From IMG/VR virus record IMGVR_UViG_3300009159_000278, positions 1 to 25,872 of that record: a DNA stretch of 25,872 nt. One strand, written 5' to 3'. Position 1 is the first letter of the stretch. Every line of letters begins with the position of its first letter. A program made the translations under genes and the position numbers. This document shows positions 13,555 to 25,872 of this stretch, piece by piece. This DNA is from a virus. The notes beneath the pieces are model-generated. The model did not search any database, had not been told where the DNA came from, and was given only the letters and a program-made list of their open reading frames with translations.

Positions 13555-15222
13555 ATGGTTTGGAGAGCAGAAGACCCGCAGGGGAATGAGTCAGGGAAAA
13601 TCGTCTGGGAATTGCCACGCTGGACGCGGGGCCGAGTCCTCGATGTCGGCTGCGGGCCTAACAAAGGATTTCCACATTTCATAGGCTTGGACTCCGGCGT
13701 TGACACGCAGCTATTTGGCATTCAGATGAAGCCGGACATCTGGATTGAGGACGCCAGCAATCTGGCCCTGTTCGGTTCCGAAGCGTACGACGCTGTCTAC
13801 TCATCGCATCTCCTTGAACACATCGCGCCGGAAAAGGTCGAGGAGACTTTGCGCGAATGGTGGCGGGTGTTGAAGGTCGGCGGCTATCTGGTGCTTTATC
13901 TGCCACACGAAGACCTGTATCCCAAAGTGGGACAACCTAACGCGAACCCAGACCACAAGTGGGACGTGAACGAGCAGCGCCTATTGGCGTACATGCGACC
14001 CGTTGGCTCGTGGGATTGCCGGGTTCTTGAGCAGCGCAACGAAGGCATGGAGTACAGCCTGTTTGCAGTGTTTGAAAAGATACCCGAGCCAGAACGCTCC
14101 ACAAAGGCCAACAAGGCGTTCCAGTGGCGCTACAGCCACCAGAAGCCACGGCCAGAGAAGACAGCCGCTGTGGTGCGCTACGGGGCATATGGCGACATCC
14201 TGCAAGCCTCCAGCGTGTTTGCCGGTCTGAAAAAGCAGGGCTACCACGTCACGGTCTTTTGCTCGCCACCGGGCAGTGATGTGATCAAGCACGACCCCAA
14301 CATTGATGACTTCTACTATCAGGACGTCAACCAAGTGCCGAATGAGCACCTCGGTGCGTTCTGGGGCCATCACCGGAAGAAGTTCGACAAGTGGGTTCAG
14401 TTAAGCGAAAGCGCGGAAGGTACGCTTCTGCCGATTCCTGGGCGGTTCATGTACGAGGCGCCGCCTGCGGTTCGCCACAAGATGTGCAACCAGAACTATC
14501 TAGAATTCCAGCACGATTGTGCCAAGGTTGAGCACAAGCCAGCCGTAAAGTTTTTTGCGCTACCAGAAGAAACTTTATGGGCCAAAAAACAGCGCGAGGA
14601 GATGGGCAAGTTCGTTATTGTCTGGGCGCTGGCCGGGTCATCGGTGCATAAAACGTGGCCGCACATTGATACCGTTTTTGCGAGGCTGTTGATCGACTTT
14701 CCGGAGGTTCACATTGTATTGGTAGGCTCTGAGGCCGGGACAATCCTCGAGCAAGGGTGGTTCATTCCTGATGAGCAGACCGGACGCCCAAAACGCATCA
14801 AGGGAAGGAAAATTAAAACCGAGCCACGCATCTGGCCGATGTGCGGAGAGTGGAAAATCCGTGAGACTTTGGCCTTTACCTTGCTGGCCGACATGGTCAT
14901 CGGGCCAGAAACCGGCGTTCTCAACTCAGTCTCGCATGAGCCCATGCCAAAGGTTGTTTTCCTGAGCCACAGCAGCGCGGAAAACCTCACCAGAGACTGG
15001 GACAACGCCACACCGCTGATGGCAGCGAACACGCACTGTCCGGGCCGTGGAGCCAACGAAGCGCCGGCCTGTCATCAGCTGCATTACAACTGGAGCAACT
15101 GTCAGCAGGCCAAAGACGCTGACGGAAACGACATGGGCGTGGCCCAGTGTCAGGCTGAAATCACTGCCGACATGGCATACGATGCGATATATCCGACAAT
15201 CAAAAAGGCGCTTAAAAGATGA
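13555..15222 (+). CDS. Fused SAM methyltransferase - GT9 heptosyltransferase-like protein
   Basis: A 555-residue two-domain enzyme with GAGGA at 13543-13547. Residues 1-175 form a class I methyltransferase: VLDVGCGP (28-35), acidic D46 after IGLD, YDAVYSSHLLEHI (78-90), and WWRVLKVGGYLVLYLP (102-117). Residues ~200-555 resemble GT9 (WaaC/WaaF-type) glycosyltransferases, which move heptose from ADP-heptose to LPS: RYGAYGDILQASSV (208-221), WALAGSSVHKTWPH (357-370), and ADMVIGPETGVLNSVSH (445-461). The usual GT9 DTGxxH is changed to ETGVLN. The end holds four Cys (495, 506, 516, 532) with a CHQLHY block, possibly a metal site. Its stop overlaps the gp4-like start (ATGA). The acceptor is unknown: LPS, virion protein or DNA are all possible. 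A fusion of these two activities is unusual in my knowledge; the methyltransferase could finish the transferred sugar. Confidence 0.82.
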   Translation: MVWRAEDPQGNESGKIVWELPRWTRGRVLDVGCGPNKGFPHFIGLDSGVDTQLFGIQMKPDIWIEDASNLALFGSEAYDAVYSSHLLEHIAPEKVEETLREWWRVLKVGGYLVLYLPHEDLYPKVGQPNANPDHKWDVNEQRLLAYMRPVGSWDCRVLEQRNEGMEYSLFAVFEKIPEPERSTKANKAFQWRYSHQKPRPEKTAAVVRYGAYGDILQASSVFAGLKKQGYHVTVFCSPPGSDVIKHDPNIDDFYYQDVNQVPNEHLGAFWGHHRKKFDKWVQLSESAEGTLLPIPGRFMYEAPPAVRHKMCNQNYLEFQHDCAKVEHKPAVKFFALPEETLWAKKQREEMGKFVIVWALAGSSVHKTWPHIDTVFARLLIDFPEVHIVLVGSEAGTILEQGWFIPDEQTGRPKRIKGRKIKTEPRIWPMCGEWKIRETLAFTLLADMVIGPETGVLNSVSHEPMPKVVFLSHSSAENLTRDWDNATPLMAANTHCPGRGANEAPACHQLHYNWSNCQQAKDADGNDMGVAQCQAEITADMAYDAIYPTIKKALKR

Positions 15223-18994: not shown

Positions 18995-19540
18995 ATGAAA
19001 AATTTCCAGTTTGTAACCAACTTCGACCCGTTGACCCTGCTGCATCAAGTGCAGCGCAAACCCGACTTGTGGAACGAGAACACGTTGCGCACGACGCACG
19101 AGGCGACCCCGCACAAACAGGTGGACGACATCTGGGTGCGGTTTAACGACCTGAGCGAATACGAGAACAACCTTGTGGGCGTGATCGATGAGCATGAATC
19201 GATGTGGTATCCGCCAATCTACGAACTGCCGGCAGTGCGCTCTATCGTTTTTGGGCTAATGGCTCGCGTTGAAGGTGAGCGGCTTGGCAGGGTGCTCATC
19301 ACCAGACTGGCACCGGGCAAGGTCATCACGCCACACGTAGACAGCGGAAGCCACGCCAGCTATTACGAGCGGTATCACTGCGTGCTGCAAGGCTTGCCGG
19401 GTTCTCTGTTCCGCTGCGGAGATGAGCAGATAACCATGCGCACGGGCGAAGTGTGGTGGTTCAACAACGCCATCGAGCACGAGGTTGTGAACAACTCGAC
19501 CGATGACCGCATCCACCTGATAGTTGATATTCGATGCTGA
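18995..19540 (+). CDS. 2-oxoglutarate/Fe(II) dioxygenase, aspartyl/asparaginyl hydroxylase-like
   Basis: A 181-residue enzyme; the start at 18995 has GGAGG at 18986-18990 (an ATG at 18977 lies inside the fibre gene). The Fe-binding set is visible as H114-x-D116 (ITPHVDSGSH) and H162 (NNAIEHEVVN), with R172 as the 2-oxoglutarate anchor (DDRIHLIVDIR). The double-stranded beta-helix core and motif GEVWWFNNAIEHEVVN match the Asp_Arg_Hydrox type (PF05118), which hydroxylates Asp or Asn side chains using O2 and 2-oxoglutarate. The substrate is unknown; the position between the fibre gene and the ejection genes makes a virion protein a candidate. It overlaps the acetyltransferase gene by seven bases. 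Confidence 0.83.
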   Translation: MKNFQFVTNFDPLTLLHQVQRKPDLWNENTLRTTHEATPHKQVDDIWVRFNDLSEYENNLVGVIDEHESMWYPPIYELPAVRSIVFGLMARVEGERLGRVLITRLAPGKVITPHVDSGSHASYYERYHCVLQGLPGSLFRCGDEQITMRTGEVWWFNNAIEHEVVNNSTDDRIHLIVDIRC

Positions 19541-19989
19541 CGCTACAGGTAGAGTCGTTCACCGAGCTGCTGGACGAACTCAAGCCGCTGTTGCCGCTCC
19601 ACTGGGAAGAACTGGCGATGGACAAGGACAAGGTGCCACTAGACCCACAGTTCGACGTCTACACCCGGCGCGAGGCCGCAGGCGAGGTCATGATGGTGAC
19701 CGCTCGGCAGGACGGCAGGCTGGCCGGGTACTTCATCGGGTTCGTGGCTCCAGGACTGCACTACAAAACATGCCTGACGCTGATCATGGATATTTTCTTC
19801 ATCCATCCAGATTCCCGGAATGGTTTCGCCGGGATAAAGCTGTTCAAGGCTGTTGAGACAGAGGCAAGACGCAGGGGCGTGCAACGGATCATCGTTGGGA
19901 GCAAAATGCACGCAGACGCATCGATATTGTTTGAGCGTTTGAGTTATTCGCCGGTCGAGACGTATTACTCGAAATGGATAGGAGGCTGA
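19534..19989 (+). CDS. GNAT-family N-acetyltransferase
   Basis: A 151-residue protein with the GNAT layout: N-terminal helices, beta strands (EVMMVTARQDGRLAGYFIGF), the central strand LIMDIFFIHPDSRNGFAG and a following helix with the acetyl-CoA loop (residues about 85-105), and a C-terminal strand/helix (RIIVGSKMHADASILFERL). GNAT enzymes transfer an acetyl group from acetyl-CoA to an amine. Similar short GNATs are frequent in phage late regions, with unknown targets. The seven-base overlap with the hydroxylase suggests the two act together or are expressed together. Confidence 0.8.
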   Translation: MLTLQVESFTELLDELKPLLPLHWEELAMDKDKVPLDPQFDVYTRREAAGEVMMVTARQDGRLAGYFIGFVAPGLHYKTCLTLIMDIFFIHPDSRNGFAGIKLFKAVETEARRRGVQRIIVGSKMHADASILFERLSYSPVETYYSKWIGG

Positions 19990-19990
19990 C

Positions 19991-20701
19991 ATGGTAATGG
20001 TAGCGGTTGGAGTTAGTGCTGTCGCTGGTGTGGCCGGGAGCGCAATCTCTGGATCGATGGCCGCTGACGCCACCGAGGAAGCGACGCAAAAACAAGTAGA
20101 GGCACAACGCGAAGCGCTGGCCCAGCAAGAGCGGTTGAGCGCTCCGTATCGAGCGCTGGGAGAGTCTGCCATCCCTGCGTATCAGCGCCTGCTCGGAATC
20201 GGGCCAAACGGCCAGCAACTAAGCCCTCAACAGATTACCCAGCAGCTAACGCAGATGCCGGGCTATCAGTTCCAGTTGAGTCAAGGTCTTGACGCTACGA
20301 AACGGCAGGCGGCGGCTATGGGCCTTGGCCTATCCGGCAACACGCTGCAAGCGCTGAACAAATACTCTCAAGGACTGGCCTCGACGTCCTACCAGAACCA
20401 GCTTGAAAACCTGTTGAACCCCATCAAGATTGGGCAAGCGGGGGCCGCCAATCAAGCCGCAGCCGCATCGCAGACAGGCGCAAACTTGGGGAACATCTAC
20501 GGTGCGCAGGGCCAGAATCAGGCCAACATTGCCACCGGGATGGTTGGTGGTATCACCAATGCGCTGGGTGGAGCTGCCAACAATTATGTGACCATGAACA
20601 CGCTTCAGGGTTTGACGGACACCGGAGGTATTGGCGCTGCTTATCGTCCCGAAGTCACCAACATGAGCCAGTTATACGGCCCGCAAGTTTTTGCGCGATA
20701 G
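19991..20701 (+). CDS. DNA ejection protein 1 (P22 gp7-like position)
   Basis: A 236-residue protein (P22 gp7 is about 229) with GGAGG directly before the ATG. A hydrophobic Gly/Ala/Val N-terminal segment (residues 2-25) is followed by a Gln/Glu-rich coiled-coil region (QKQVEAQREALAQQERL) and low-complexity Gln/Ala/Asn stretches (AGAANQAAAASQTGANLG). SAPYRALGESAIPAYQRLLG and PGYQFQLSQGLDATKRQAAA are typical of the small ejection/DNA transfer proteins. These leave the virion with the DNA and help form a channel through the host envelope. The function is inferred from composition, size and position. Confidence 0.72.
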   Translation: MVMVAVGVSAVAGVAGSAISGSMAADATEEATQKQVEAQREALAQQERLSAPYRALGESAIPAYQRLLGIGPNGQQLSPQQITQQLTQMPGYQFQLSQGLDATKRQAAAMGLGLSGNTLQALNKYSQGLASTSYQNQLENLLNPIKIGQAGAANQAAAASQTGANLGNIYGAQGQNQANIATGMVGGITNALGGAANNYVTMNTLQGLTDTGGIGAAYRPEVTNMSQLYGPQVFAR

Positions 20702-20710
20702 GAGTCTGAC

Positions 20711-22207
20711 ATGCCCATAAACCCATCAGACATTTCAAACATCGGATTGGCCGGCGGCAGTCCGGTTGAGGCTATGGCGCAGGGTTACAAGTTGGCCGAC
20801 TTAGTCGATCAACGTGCCATCAACAAAATGAAAATGGCCGGGGCCCAGCAAGACATGCAGGACATGCAGACGCTCAAAAGCTTGTCGAGCAAGTTTGACG
20901 TCAGCACGCCAGAGGGACAGGCGCAGTTCGCAGCCGAGGCTATCAAAGTCAACCCGGAAATGGGTCTGAAGATTCAGAAGCAGTTCACCGAATCGCAGAC
21001 CAGTCAAAACGAACTGACAAAGAGCCAGTACGACATTTTCGGAAAAAAGCTCGAAATGGAAGCGCAGTCCGTTGCACCTCTATGGCAGCAGGCCAGCCAG
21101 ATGCAGGCTCAGGGCAGGAGCCAGCAGGAAATCGACGCAGCCTTGTTGCCGGCAGTCTCGCAGACGCTAAAAACTCTTTCGCAGCAGACGTTGCCCAACG
21201 GCAAGCCGGTACTCTCGCAGGAAGAGATTGCGGCATTTAGCGCCAAACTTCAGCAAGGCAACGTGAAGGGCGCTCTCGACGGCATCATGATGAACCACGC
21301 TAAGGGCGCAGAACTGCTCAAGTCTCAGCAGCAGAAGGTTGGCCGACCGTTTGCCATGACCGGCGAACAAGGCCCTGGCATGTATGTTATGGGCGAAAAC
21401 GGTCAACCACGGTTTGTGGGCGGACAGGCGACGACTGCTGGTGATGGCGGTGGTAGCGCCCCGAAAGTGCAGCGCTCAGAAATTCTGACCGGCGGCGCAG
21501 TAATGACCGTGATGGACAACGGGGAAAGCATTGTCAGAGACACCGACGGGAACGTGGTTACCGGGAAAGAACGTTCAGAACTCTTAAAAAATGCTGGACT
21601 CAGCAAAATTGAACAATCCGGGGAAATGGCGGCGACGAAACAGTTGCGCGAAGATGCGGTGAAGAATGCTGATGTTGCGTTTAAGTCTTCTCAATCCATC
21701 AGAAGCAACATCGTTAACCTTAAGGAAGCCATTGCCCAAATCGATGCTGGGGCAAACACGGGCGTGATCGCAAGCAAATTCCCCAACCTGTTGAACGCAT
21801 CAATCGAATTGCAAAACATTCAAAGCAGGCTGGGCCTTGATGTCGTCGGCCAGACAACGTTTGGAGCGCTGTCAGGCTCAGAATTAAACCTCGCATTGCA
21901 AACTGGATTACCGACCAATTTAGAGGGGCCGGCTCTTAAACAATGGCTGATAAAACGCATTGAGGCCCAAGAAAACGTTTCTAAGTACCTCACCAAGCAG
22001 GCCACTTATCTGTCAAAACCCGGAAACACTTTAGCGGGATGGATGGAAAAGATGCAAAACGAGGCAGAAGAAAAACAGCGGTCTGAAGCTCAGGGCGGTG
22101 GGGCTCAGGGCGGTGGTGCGCAAAATTATCAGGAAGGCCAGACAGCCACAAATGCCAAAGGTGATCGCAGGATTTTCAGAGGTGGCAAATGGCAACCGAT
22201 GCAGTAA
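20711..22207 (+). CDS. DNA ejection protein 2 (P22 gp20-like position)
   Basis: A 498-residue protein, similar to P22 gp20 in size (about 471), with AGGAG at 20700-20704. It is rich in Gln, Ala, Met and Lys with long helices (residues ~40-170 and ~270-450), consistent with a rod-like internal virion protein. It has no membrane anchor. A Gly/Gln repeat (GGGAQGGGAQ) lies near residue 460 and the end is DRRIFRGGKWQPMQ. It overlaps the next gene by 19 bases, and the three-gene order matches the P22 ejection proteins. The identity is inferred from size, order and composition. Confidence 0.68.
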   Translation: MPINPSDISNIGLAGGSPVEAMAQGYKLADLVDQRAINKMKMAGAQQDMQDMQTLKSLSSKFDVSTPEGQAQFAAEAIKVNPEMGLKIQKQFTESQTSQNELTKSQYDIFGKKLEMEAQSVAPLWQQASQMQAQGRSQQEIDAALLPAVSQTLKTLSQQTLPNGKPVLSQEEIAAFSAKLQQGNVKGALDGIMMNHAKGAELLKSQQQKVGRPFAMTGEQGPGMYVMGENGQPRFVGGQATTAGDGGGSAPKVQRSEILTGGAVMTVMDNGESIVRDTDGNVVTGKERSELLKNAGLSKIEQSGEMAATKQLREDAVKNADVAFKSSQSIRSNIVNLKEAIAQIDAGANTGVIASKFPNLLNASIELQNIQSRLGLDVVGQTTFGALSGSELNLALQTGLPTNLEGPALKQWLIKRIEAQENVSKYLTKQATYLSKPGNTLAGWMEKMQNEAEEKQRSEAQGGGAQGGGAQNYQEGQTATNAKGDRRIFRGGKWQPMQ

Positions 22208-24759
22208 GCCTGCCAGAAGGTTTCACGTTGGACGCGGCATCTGGGCAAGGCGCTCAGTTGCCAGAAGGTTTCACGCTGGATGCGCCACAAGCCGCTCAGG
22301 AAGCGCCAGCAGGCCGTAGCCTGTTAGGCCAGCCGGTACAGGCCCAAGAGCGCCCCGGATTCTTTGGCGGCGTTAAAGACGTCTTGCAGGGCGTGGTGGA
22401 AGTTCCGGCTACGATGGTCAGCGGCGGCGCTGGTGCTGTGGTTGGAGGCTTGCGCGGTTTGGCTGGTTTGGCGTCTGGCCAATCATTAGAGCAAGCAGCA
22501 CAAACCGTTGGCGAAACTCAAGAGGCTTTGACGTATCAGCCACGCAGTGCTCCAGGACAAGCGCTGACGCAGGACATTGGTCTTGGTTTCCAGCAACTGG
22601 CGAAACCGGGTGAGAAACTGGCCTCTGCTGGTTATCCAGCCGCAGGAGCAGCAGTGACCACGGCCCTGCAAGGAGCGTTGCCGTTGGCCGCTCCCGGCAT
22701 GGTGAAGACCGGAAAAGGCATCATCGAGGCAGCAACGCCAGCAGCTCGGCAAGCGGTAATGAAGGCTGGAGGTGCGGTGAAGCAGGCAGCAGAGCCTTAC
22801 ATCAACGCAGCAGAGGCAGCAACGGCAGCACGGCGTGAGCGAATGATGGCCGAGGCCGAGGCTCCAAGAGAATCGATGGGCGCTGCGTTGACCTCTACGC
22901 CAACCGAAATCGCGGCAGCCATTGCCAACGCCAGCCCAGAACTGAAACAGATTGTTTCCAACATTCCGATCAACGAAATCAGCAAGCCAACGCTTGTTGC
23001 GCATCTTGAAGCGGATTCGTTGCCGAAACCTGTTCGCCTGATGGGGCCGCAAGCATCGCAAGACCCGGTGGCGCTTTCGGATTTGTACAACCAGCGCGGA
23101 GTGCCGGGTTCTCGCGTGCCGGAACTGATGCAACAACAAAACCGGGATCTGATTGAAAACACCGATTTAATCCGGGACACGGTCGCGCCTGATGTGTACA
23201 GCACCCGAAAGATCGAAGCATCCGAAAACATCATTGATGCTTATCGGGAGCTGGATGCGGGAAAACGTCAGGGAATCAGAGCGGCATATAAAGCCCTTGA
23301 AGATGCTAACGGTGGGCAATTTCCAGTGGATGGTGCGGCGATTGCCCAAAACTCATTTGCGGCCTTAGCGAAAAAACTGAAAACGGATTACCTGTCGTCT
23401 GCTATTCGCAACCAGCTGGATGCGTTCATGCGTGGCGAACCGATGACGTTTGAGCAATTTGAAGCCATGCGCACGAATCTGGCCGACGAAATCAGAACAG
23501 CAGAACGCGCAGGGAATGGAAACGCAGCGATGGCCGCAAGCATCGTTCGCAGCGAAATGGAAAAATTGCCCATGACGCCCGGCACTGGCGAAAGGCTCAA
23601 AGGCTTGTCAGACACTGCCAGAGGCTTGGCAAAAGACCGATTCGACATGCTCAAAAAAGACCCGGCATATAAGGCCATCGTCAAAGCTGAAGATGCGTCC
23701 ATCAACGAAAAACTGCCAGCAGACAAGTTCTACGAAAAATTTGTCTTGAATGGTGGGCAGCGCAATCTGCAAACCATGATCGAAACATTTGGAGAAAACT
23801 CCCCGGTGCATCAAGAAATTCGCGCCGGAACGATGTTTCATCTGAAAGAACGCGCCGGAATCGATTCAGAGAATCGAGGAAACTTCACGCAAGCCGGGTA
23901 CAACAAAGCGCTGGAAAAGTTAGACCGCTCAAACAAGATGGGCATTATTTTTGATGCAGAAGGCCAAAGATTGACCAGAGCCTTGGGAAATACCGCATTT
24001 CGCATCCAATTCCAGCCCAAGGGTTCATTTGTGAGCAATCCCAACACGGTTGTGGGTTTGATCCGAGAGGCAAGCGCTGGGGCGCTTGAAAAAGCATTCA
24101 ACATGACCGGCATTCCGGCAGGCACGTTGGTCCGACAAGCGCTGGAGGCGGCAAGCCAGCGAAAAGCAGCAGAGCCATACTTGGCGCCGTTGGCCGGAGT
24201 TCGCATCCAGCGAGTCTCCGGCCAGCCGAAAGCGCCAACGCTCAAAGACTTGGAGAAGCGCACGGCTCCCGGCATGACGCCAAAAGGTAGGGGGCAGAGA
24301 GGAGCAATCACACTGGGCGGTGTGCCTAAGCCTGAAGTCAAAACAGGCGCACCGACACTTGGACAATTTCCGGAAAATCAGAAAATGGGCCAGACTCTGA
24401 TTGGGAAAAAACAGCGTGGGTCTGTGGAGATAAGTAAATCAAAACAAGATCCCATGTTGATCAGCAGTCAGCGCTATTTAGACCCAGAAATAATTGCAGA
24501 AAAACAAAAAAACAAGGATTACGTTGTCACTATATCTCCTGCTTTTGAAGCAAACGGAGAAACCATGCAAGTTGTGATTGATGGGCATCATTCATTAGCC
24601 GCTGCCAAAAAAGATAAGGTCAAACCTAAATTTGTTGTTGCAAAAAAACAAAATGATGACCGTATTGGGTTGTTAGAGAAATCCGTAGATGATTATCTTG
24701 AAAGCAACTATATGGATTCGGATTGGTATGACGTAAAAAGTGGGGATACTGTTTTTTAA
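22189..24759 (+). CDS. DNA ejection protein 3 (P22 gp16-like) with a ParB/Srx-like C-terminal domain
   Basis: An 856-residue protein with a GAGGTGG-type ribosome binding site directly before the ATG. P22 gp16 is about 609, so this is ~250 longer. The N-terminus has two copies of LPEGFTLDA, followed by a Gly/Ala-rich hydrophobic segment (residues ~60-105) that may enter membranes, then long helical regions. The C-terminal ~110 residues (about 745-856) are different in kind: YLDPEIIAEKQKNKDYVVTI and QVVIDGHHSLAAAKKDKVK, with DGHH at 798-801. This is the signature of ParB/sulfiredoxin-fold domains, which include nucleases and kinase-like enzymes and occur in phage polyvalent proteins. The DNA of this part is only about 37% G+C (hand count over 24421-24720), against 60-67% for nearby samples, so it was probably acquired separately. 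Confidence 0.75.
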   Translation: MATDAVSLPEGFTLDAASGQGAQLPEGFTLDAPQAAQEAPAGRSLLGQPVQAQERPGFFGGVKDVLQGVVEVPATMVSGGAGAVVGGLRGLAGLASGQSLEQAAQTVGETQEALTYQPRSAPGQALTQDIGLGFQQLAKPGEKLASAGYPAAGAAVTTALQGALPLAAPGMVKTGKGIIEAATPAARQAVMKAGGAVKQAAEPYINAAEAATAARRERMMAEAEAPRESMGAALTSTPTEIAAAIANASPELKQIVSNIPINEISKPTLVAHLEADSLPKPVRLMGPQASQDPVALSDLYNQRGVPGSRVPELMQQQNRDLIENTDLIRDTVAPDVYSTRKIEASENIIDAYRELDAGKRQGIRAAYKALEDANGGQFPVDGAAIAQNSFAALAKKLKTDYLSSAIRNQLDAFMRGEPMTFEQFEAMRTNLADEIRTAERAGNGNAAMAASIVRSEMEKLPMTPGTGERLKGLSDTARGLAKDRFDMLKKDPAYKAIVKAEDASINEKLPADKFYEKFVLNGGQRNLQTMIETFGENSPVHQEIRAGTMFHLKERAGIDSENRGNFTQAGYNKALEKLDRSNKMGIIFDAEGQRLTRALGNTAFRIQFQPKGSFVSNPNTVVGLIREASAGALEKAFNMTGIPAGTLVRQALEAASQRKAAEPYLAPLAGVRIQRVSGQPKAPTLKDLEKRTAPGMTPKGRGQRGAITLGGVPKPEVKTGAPTLGQFPENQKMGQTLIGKKQRGSVEISKSKQDPMLISSQRYLDPEIIAEKQKNKDYVVTISPAFEANGETMQVVIDGHHSLAAAKKDKVKPKFVVAKKQNDDRIGLLEKSVDDYLESNYMDSDWYDVKSGDTVF
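22211..22275 (+). repeat. 17-base direct repeat, 48-base spacing (LPEGFTLDA unit)
   Basis: TGCCAGAAGGTTTCACG occurs at 22211-22227 and again at 22259-22275. It encodes the duplicated LPEGFTLDA of the ejection protein N-terminus. The unit is reminiscent of the LP.GF.LD repeats found in other phage internal proteins. Confidence 0.65.
24421..24758 (+). other. AT-rich segment encoding the grafted C-terminal domain
   Basis: A hand count gives 110 G+C of 300 bases (about 37%) over 24421-24720. The same count in 22381-22440 is 40 of 60 and in 25141-25200 is 36 of 60. The shift begins near 24410-24420, at the boundary between the linker (Gly/Lys/Arg-rich) and the ParB/Srx-like domain, so the composition border and the domain border coincide. 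Confidence 0.7.
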
Positions 24760-25872
24760 TGAAAATCCTAATCCTCGAGCACGAAGACGCCGGCTGCGGA
24801 TTGGATTTCGTTCTGCGCTGCGTGTCTGCCGGCCATCAAGTGCGCTACTGGCTCTCTCCAGACGCATCGCCCCACATCGGGCAGGGCTTCAAGGGCGTTG
24901 AGTTTATCAAGAACTGGACTGGCTCGGCCAAATGGGCAGACCTCGTGTGGTGCACCGGCAACGACCGCTACATCGACCGTCTGGAGTTCTTCCGCAAACA
25001 GGGTGCGTGCGTGTTCGCCCCATCGGTGAAATCCGCACAACTGGAAATCGACCGGGCATATGGCATGAAGTTCTTGGATGACCACGGCATTGAGTGCCCA
25101 GAACACCAGACATTCAAGACGCTGGCCGATGCTGAGCGGTTCGCACGCAAGACCGATGAGCGCTTCGTGTTCAAGACGCTGGGCAGCGAGGAGGACAAGA
25201 GCCTGTCCTATTGCGCAAAGTCGCCTGCCGACCTTGTGGCACGGCTCCAGCGCTGGCAGCGGATGGGCATGAAGTTAAAAGGCCCCTGCATGTTGCAGAA
25301 GTTCATCCCCGGCGTTGAGTTTGCGGTCAGCGCGTGGATGGGCACCGAGGGATTCGTGGGGTTGCCCAACGAGAACTTTGAACACAAGAAACTGCTTTCC
25401 GGCAACTGCGGGCCAAACTGCGGAGAAGCCGGGACGGTCATGAAGTACTGCAACGACAGCACGTTGTTTGAAGAAGTGCTGAAACCGCTTGAGCAGTCTT
25501 TGATTGAACTCGGCCACCTCGGTGACATCGATGTCAACTGCATCATCGACGAGGACGGCAAGGCGTGGCCTTTGGAGTTCACCGCTCGCCCAGGTTGGCC
25601 GGCGTTCAATATCATGATGGCCACGACTAAGGGAGACCCAGCGCAGTGGATGTACGATGCCTGCCGTGGCGAGGACACGCTGGAAGTGAGCACGGCCATC
25701 GCGGTTGGCGTGGTCGTGGCGCAACCGGATTATCCGTACAGCAAAGCGACGCAGAAGGAAGTGACCGACATCCCGGTGTACGGCGTGACTCCCAAGAACC
25801 GCCGGTTCATCGCGCCCCAGTCAATCAAAATGGCCTCAATGCCTGACATGGACGGCGAGCAGCTCGTTGAGC
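24759..25872 (+). CDS. PurD-like ATP-grasp ligase (partial, runs off the window)
   Basis: Open from ATG 24759 (TAATG overlap with the ejection protein) to the window end, 371 residues so far with no stop. It resembles phosphoribosylamine-glycine ligase (GAR synthetase, PurD): KSAQLEIDRAYGMKFLDDHG aligns with PurD AAQLEGSKAFTKDFL..., HKKLLSGNCGPNCGEAGT with HKRVGDKDTGPNTGGMGA, and GDIDVNCIIDEDGKAWPLEF then TARPGWPA with the PurD active-site strand ending in EFN.RFGDPE. The N-terminus (MKILILEHEDAGCG) is a typical PurD Rossmann-like start, without the GGREHA motif. The known reaction joins 5-phosphoribosylamine and glycine with ATP in purine synthesis. The altered motifs (GPNCGEAG, TARPGWPA) leave open a different amine or acid substrate. 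Confidence 0.78.
   Translation, partial: MKILILEHEDAGCGLDFVLRCVSAGHQVRYWLSPDASPHIGQGFKGVEFIKNWTGSAKWADLVWCTGNDRYIDRLEFFRKQGACVFAPSVKSAQLEIDRAYGMKFLDDHGIECPEHQTFKTLADAERFARKTDERFVFKTLGSEEDKSLSYCAKSPADLVARLQRWQRMGMKLKGPCMLQKFIPGVEFAVSAWMGTEGFVGLPNENFEHKKLLSGNCGPNCGEAGTVMKYCNDSTLFEEVLKPLEQSLIELGHLGDIDVNCIIDEDGKAWPLEFTARPGWPAFNIMMATTKGDPAQWMYDACRGEDTLEVSTAIAVGVVVAQPDYPYSKATQKEVTDIPVYGVTPKNRRFIAPQSIKMASMPDMDGEQLVE

Follow-up and report, generated by a model that had tools for sequence, protein, structure and literature searches.

An AT-rich ParB/sulfiredoxin-fold domain added in frame to the C terminus of a probable phage ejection protein

For DdrB-like ParB domains, which are encoded beside or within phage virion proteins and occur in phage heads, injection has been proposed, along with a function in sensing or degrading nucleotides at an early stage of infection (Iyer et al. 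2017, PMC5512222); in one such case, the late genes include a fusion of the domain to a lysozyme domain (PMC5512222). Portal and MuF proteins fused to enzymatic PBECR, 2H, and InPase effector domains have been described as well (PMC5512222). Binding of ATP or CTP has been shown for several phage proteins with a ParB fold, DUF6551 fusions among them (Hocher et al., PMC12704722), and the GxxR sequence of the ParB P motif contains the Arg that is characteristic of the superfamily (PMC12704722). Among ejection proteins, T7 gp16 has an N-terminal transglycosylase that acts in the periplasm, and its C terminus is placed in the cytoplasm (PMC8954989).

Here, a ParB/sulfiredoxin (Srx)-like domain at the end of a phage ejection gene was analysed in a viral contig of 25,872 nucleotides (IMG/VR record IMGVR_UViG_3300009159_000278, positions 1 to 25,872; hereafter, the window). 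Like the DdrB-like domains, it has a predicted ParB/Srx fold, is encoded by a phage within a probable virion protein, and would be injected. In contrast to them, it is compact and C-terminal, and its family is carried by a gp16-like ejection protein and by PF06381 portals; moreover, DdrB-like domains possess an additional helix containing a Tyr, and their active-site Arg is highly conserved, whereas every member of the window family has Ser, Asn, or Thr at the position of that Arg. The PBECR, 2H, and InPase fusions likewise place a module on a head or portal protein, but the module is a different one, and the carrier in the window is an ejection protein rather than a portal or MuF protein. The carrier shares its gene position with P22 gp16, to which no sequence match was found, and its relatives share with T7 gp16 an N-terminal peptidoglycan hydrolase. 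To our knowledge, neither T7 gp16 nor P22 gp16 carries a ParB-like domain. Members of phrog_4807, including Salmonella phage SEN34_48 and the Si3 "chromosome partitioning protein," belong to the same sequence family as the window domain, with motifs shared along its whole length; they are free-standing early or accessory proteins, whereas the window copy is a fusion. SerK (242 aa) has the same fold and the same DGHH sequence, but the window domain lacks both the Arg that follows in SerK and the rest of that protein, just as it lacks the superfamily Arg of sulfiredoxin, whose fold it shares. Injected ParB domains are already known as a concept, and the novelty of the present case lies in the domain family, its carriers, and the missing Arg.

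An in-frame addition to a gp16-like gene

The ORF at 22189-24759 (+ strand) encodes 856 aa with no interruption, and the ParB/Srx-like domain forms its C-terminal end. The initial annotation had described the last ~110 codons as AT-rich and as encoding a ParB/Srx-type motif (IDGHHSLAAAKKDK), and both points proved correct at the coordinates given: the last 112 codons (24421-24756) have a GC content of 0.366 and a GC3 of 0.31 in a window that averages 56%, while 528 other 112-codon coding segments of the contig have a mean GC of 0.563 (SD, 0.031) and a minimum of 0.467 (36.6% G+C for the domain, compared to 46.7% for the lowest of the 528). Within the gene, a change point in GC was located at ~24365, with a log-likelihood gain of 21.9 versus at most 13.4 in 300 codon shuffles. 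The coordinates first assigned to the domain hold, but the border of the foreign DNA does not lie at 24421; comparison with locus L002, the closest relative of the gene (74.5% nucleotide identity), places the beginning of the added DNA upstream, at 24263. The blastn alignment of L002 to the window extends to 24262 and resumes at 24758, a position within the next gene, an ATP-grasp ORF whose start overlaps the stop of the ejection gene in both the window and L002. The intervening 495 bp have been added cleanly and in frame to the 3′ end of the ejection gene, and comprise a ~55-codon linker of near-normal composition followed by the AT-rich domain from ~24424 (Table 1).

Table 1. Positions of the ejection genes and of the segments of the fusion gene in the window
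Feature	Position	Strand	Basis or remark
P22 gp7-like ejection protein	19991..20701	+	phrog_598 (DNA ejection), E 3e-30
Protein at P22 gene 20 position	20711..22207	+	Synteny with P22; phrog_26675, 1.6e-17
Ancestral ejection-protein body, residues 1-691	22189..24261	+	79 IMG/VR homologues; P22 gene 16 position
In-frame addition relative to L002, 495 bp (exactly 165 codons)	24263..24757	+	Codons 692-856; blastn of L002 vs window
Linker, residues 692-745, GC 0.55	24262..24423	+	Low pLDDT in full-length model
AT-rich leader of domain, VEISKSKQDP	24424..24453	+	From sequence
Predicted ParB/Srx-fold domain, phrog_4807 family, MLISSQRYLD...IDGHHSLAAAK...DSDWYDVKSGDTVF	24454..24756	+	Profile match, alignment, AlphaFold2, Foldseek
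DGHHSL motif	24580..24597	+	S58 at position of Arg in ParB/Srx/SerK

Searches with the linker found no relative or source for it. A near-repeat (GRGQRGAITL / GKKQRGSVEI) is present within 24262-24453. Free-standing relatives of the domain begin at a Met just after the position of VEISKSKQDP, or near that Met, and this decapeptide may be a 5′ leader that once preceded a free-standing gene and is now read in frame. The internal ATG at 24454 was evaluated as a start for separate translation of the domain; no ribosome-binding site is present at a suitable distance, making the fusion the more likely product.

Rather than being carried with normal composition by all homologues, the domain is absent from 79 of 79 homologous ejection proteins in IMG/VR loci, whose similarity to the query ceases at residues ~681-696 or earlier and is followed by a short tail. 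Together with the empty site in L002 and the AT-rich composition of the domain, this bears out the recent acquisition proposed in the initial annotation. The accompanying suggestion that the C terminus might be exchanged for other domains among relatives fared differently: no such exchange was seen in the 79 homologues, in which it is the N terminus that varies, and the C terminus as a general swap site of this ejection family was rejected for the homologues seen. The metagenomic origin of the contig and the abruptness of the composition border could also point to an assembly chimera joining unrelated sequence to the ejection gene, but this is most improbable because both flanks are common to the window and L002 and run into the same neighbouring genes, with an in-frame junction and the same stop/start overlap in both.

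The gene order around the carrier is that of P22 (gp10 ... gp7-gp20-gp16), with a gp10-like gene upstream (phrog_578, 1.7e-99) and the carrier as the third ejection gene, at the gene 16 position. Peptidoglycan hydrolases are found at the N terminus of carrier homologues, namely, SLT in 6 of 39 and VanY in 5 of 39. An hhalign comparison of the carrier body to P22 gp16 gave no significant profile match (probability, 0.24%), and a Foldseek search of the PDB with the full ejection protein returned chance helical matches only, with no fold match for the body. The gene 16 position and the SLT/VanY domains of its relatives agree with the earlier designation of the carrier as an ejection protein and suggest that it is very likely ejected into the host; by analogy to T7 gp16, the grafted C terminus would be expected at the cytoplasmic end of the protein and probably reaches the cytoplasm.

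Several other features of the carrier family and its gene neighbourhood were observed. N-terminal SLT and VanY domains are exchanged across the ejection-protein family (e.g., L004:4315-6879), and the window copy has neither. The ATP-grasp protein directly after the ejection gene (24759-25871; GARS_A, 7e-7), which is also present in L002, is an unusual neighbour for a gp16-like gene. A GNAT acetyltransferase-like ORF (19534-19989; phrog_1249, 8.9e-12) occupies the P22 gene 14 position, and a 555-aa ORF among the structural genes (13555-15222) has a weak methyltransferase match (phrog_22502, 4.2e-7).

Fold, conserved residues, and relatives of the domain

The domain matched the phrog_4807 profile (E 1.1e-11) over residues 11-111 of 112, corresponding to profile positions 6-107 of 133. 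The AlphaFold2 model of the domain (pLDDT, 93; pTM, 0.82) was compared to the PDB using Foldseek, in which ParB (6t1f; probability, 0.90) and Srx (2rii; 0.84) were the top matches and SerK (5x0j; 0.47) appeared lower down; the first 15 matches are all ParB, Srx, or the Atu1540 protein, with a best E value of 0.046 and none below. The fold predicted is thus ParB/Srx, as initially proposed, and not another one.

In an alignment of 54 members, Q17 and D54-G55-H56-H57 are invariant in all, free and fused forms alike, and G46, A60-A62, G66, and P69 are near-invariant, the window copy having Lys at position 66. Position 58, which corresponds to the superfamily active-site Arg, is occupied by Asn in 32 members, Ser in 21, Thr in one, and Arg in none; at the equivalent position, the SerK motif reads DGHHR and sulfiredoxin carries GCHR. 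The ParB/Srx fold is therefore supported for this family, but the canonical chemistry of the superfamily is not. Among the 54 members, Pfam yielded no ParB-type model above a weak level, with a weak DUF6551 match in 28 of them (best, 1.2e-5), and NCBIfam yielded no convincing family, the SerK model matching a single member (E 0.0058). A Pfam match to Tad8, a Thoeris inhibitor, was set aside (one member only, E 0.19). The PADLOC defence library gave no convincing match. With the single domain sequence as a query, chance matches only were obtained from the PDB and no relatives from IMG/VR; the IMG/VR relatives were recovered using an alignment query.

Most relatives are free-standing phage genes encoding 105-140 aa, located in phages or prophages of Salmonella, Burkholderia, Pseudomonas, and Pantoea. 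About two dozen IMG/VR loci, mostly free-standing, make up the closer branch of the family, and the free-standing copies for which annotation or ORF lists were read lie in early or accessory regions, as a rule not among structural genes. Seed genomes aside, a sample of 369 genomes of one class contained one weak partial match and a sample of 385 from another class contained none, indicating that the family is rare. In the free-standing copy of Salmonella phages SPN1S/SPC32H (L083:6001-6153), homology ends after ~50-60 residues.

In eight relatives, the domain is the C-terminal portion of a phage portal protein (L091, L104, L110, L111, L133, and L216-L218). The first five of these were scanned, and their bodies all matched PF06381 (E<1e-72), while L216-L218 were recognised as portal fusions on visual reading and from their similarity to the other fusions. 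The domain of L091 has a GC of 0.39 in a locus of 0.56 and is missing from the nearest portals, L223 (81%) and L224 (75%), which end without it; L091 therefore repeats the pattern seen in the window. For six other portal fusions, the GC of the domain matches that of its own gene, suggesting that these fusions are older. The domain tree requires three changes between free and fused states, of which at least two are forced by well-supported branches, and places the window copy as sister to the free-standing L088 (support, 96/85), although the exact number of fusions is uncertain because the domain is short. The module was attached to portal proteins of other phages on at least one or two further occasions, a recurrence suggestive of a travelling cargo riding in virus particles. 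Two relatives of the L091 portal (L227:2393-4372 and L238:2294-4297) end in other long C-terminal tails (104 and 164 aa), neither of which is related to the ParB-like domain.

Possible roles of the added domain

In the best explanation, for which the chances appear about even, the fused product of a free-standing domain gene and an ejection gene would be packaged and delivered as a nucleotide-binding effector directed at the host. A free-standing accessory phage gene encoding a ParB/Srx-fold protein of ~100 residues, along with the linker, would have become attached by recombination, in frame, to a P22/T7-type ejection gene at its 3′ end. The fusion protein would be packaged alongside the other ejection proteins and would enter the cell ahead of the DNA, and its domain, like the C terminus of T7 gp16, would be positioned where the DNA conduit opens into the cytoplasm at the very onset of infection. 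In that position, the domain would most likely bind a nucleotide via its DGHH pocket and serve in early takeover or counter-defence. Against an effector role, the Arg of the P motif is replaced in all aligned members, which may mean that nucleotide binding or catalysis has been lost; the portal fusions would sit in the capsid and need not be injected; and no supporting anti-defence gene adjoins the fusion to favour counter-defence in particular. A broader proposal, which for now is doubtful, is that the Arg-less, DGHH-type branch of the ParB/Srx superfamily constitutes a mobile virion-delivered effector, attached independently to ejection proteins and portals, that would work on nucleotides as a putative enzyme where the conduit opens into the cytoplasm and defeat first-minute host defences.

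The locus is a sharp case of a phage adding cargo to a protein that probably enters the cell before the DNA, and the empty site in L002 provides a natural control. Should the domain act on the host, the carriers of injected effectors would come to include gp16-type ejection proteins in addition to MuF, portal, and polyvalent proteins, and an unstudied ParB-fold family would gain its first functional setting.

The domain could instead be a part of the virion or DNA conduit that senses NTP or binds DNA, and that aids packaging, ejection, or DNA ratcheting without being directed at the host. Its fusion to two kinds of proteins around the DNA channel, portal and gp16-like, is consistent with such a role, as are the binding of DNA in the cytoplasm by the C-terminal part of T7 gp16 (PMC8954989) and the function of ParB folds in other proteins as NTP switches that contact DNA (PMC12704722). 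However, the domain has neither the HTH nor the dimerisation parts found in DNA-clamping ParB, close relatives of the carrier manage without it, and most relatives of the domain are free-standing, with the copies read lying in early or accessory regions, so that a conduit function, although worth considering, is unlikely.

Escape from a superinfection exclusion system aimed at ejection proteins is a further reading of the extension, since P22 escapes SieA through changes in the C-terminal regions of gp16 and gp20 (PMC10883804), and the addition likewise lies at the C terminus of an ejection protein of this kind; this reading leaves the conserved DGHH pocket, the free-standing copies, and the portal fusions unexplained, and is quite improbable. 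A neutral or decaying gene capture, in which an accessory gene became fused by read-through and currently has no function in the virion, would fit the very recent date suggested by composition and the finding of the ejection-protein fusion in one contig only, with no close relative from which selection could be measured. Neutral capture is nonetheless rather unlikely, given that the family-invariant residues are intact and the frame is open, that fusion to virion proteins has recurred, and that one clade of portals kept the domain until its GC matched that of the gene.
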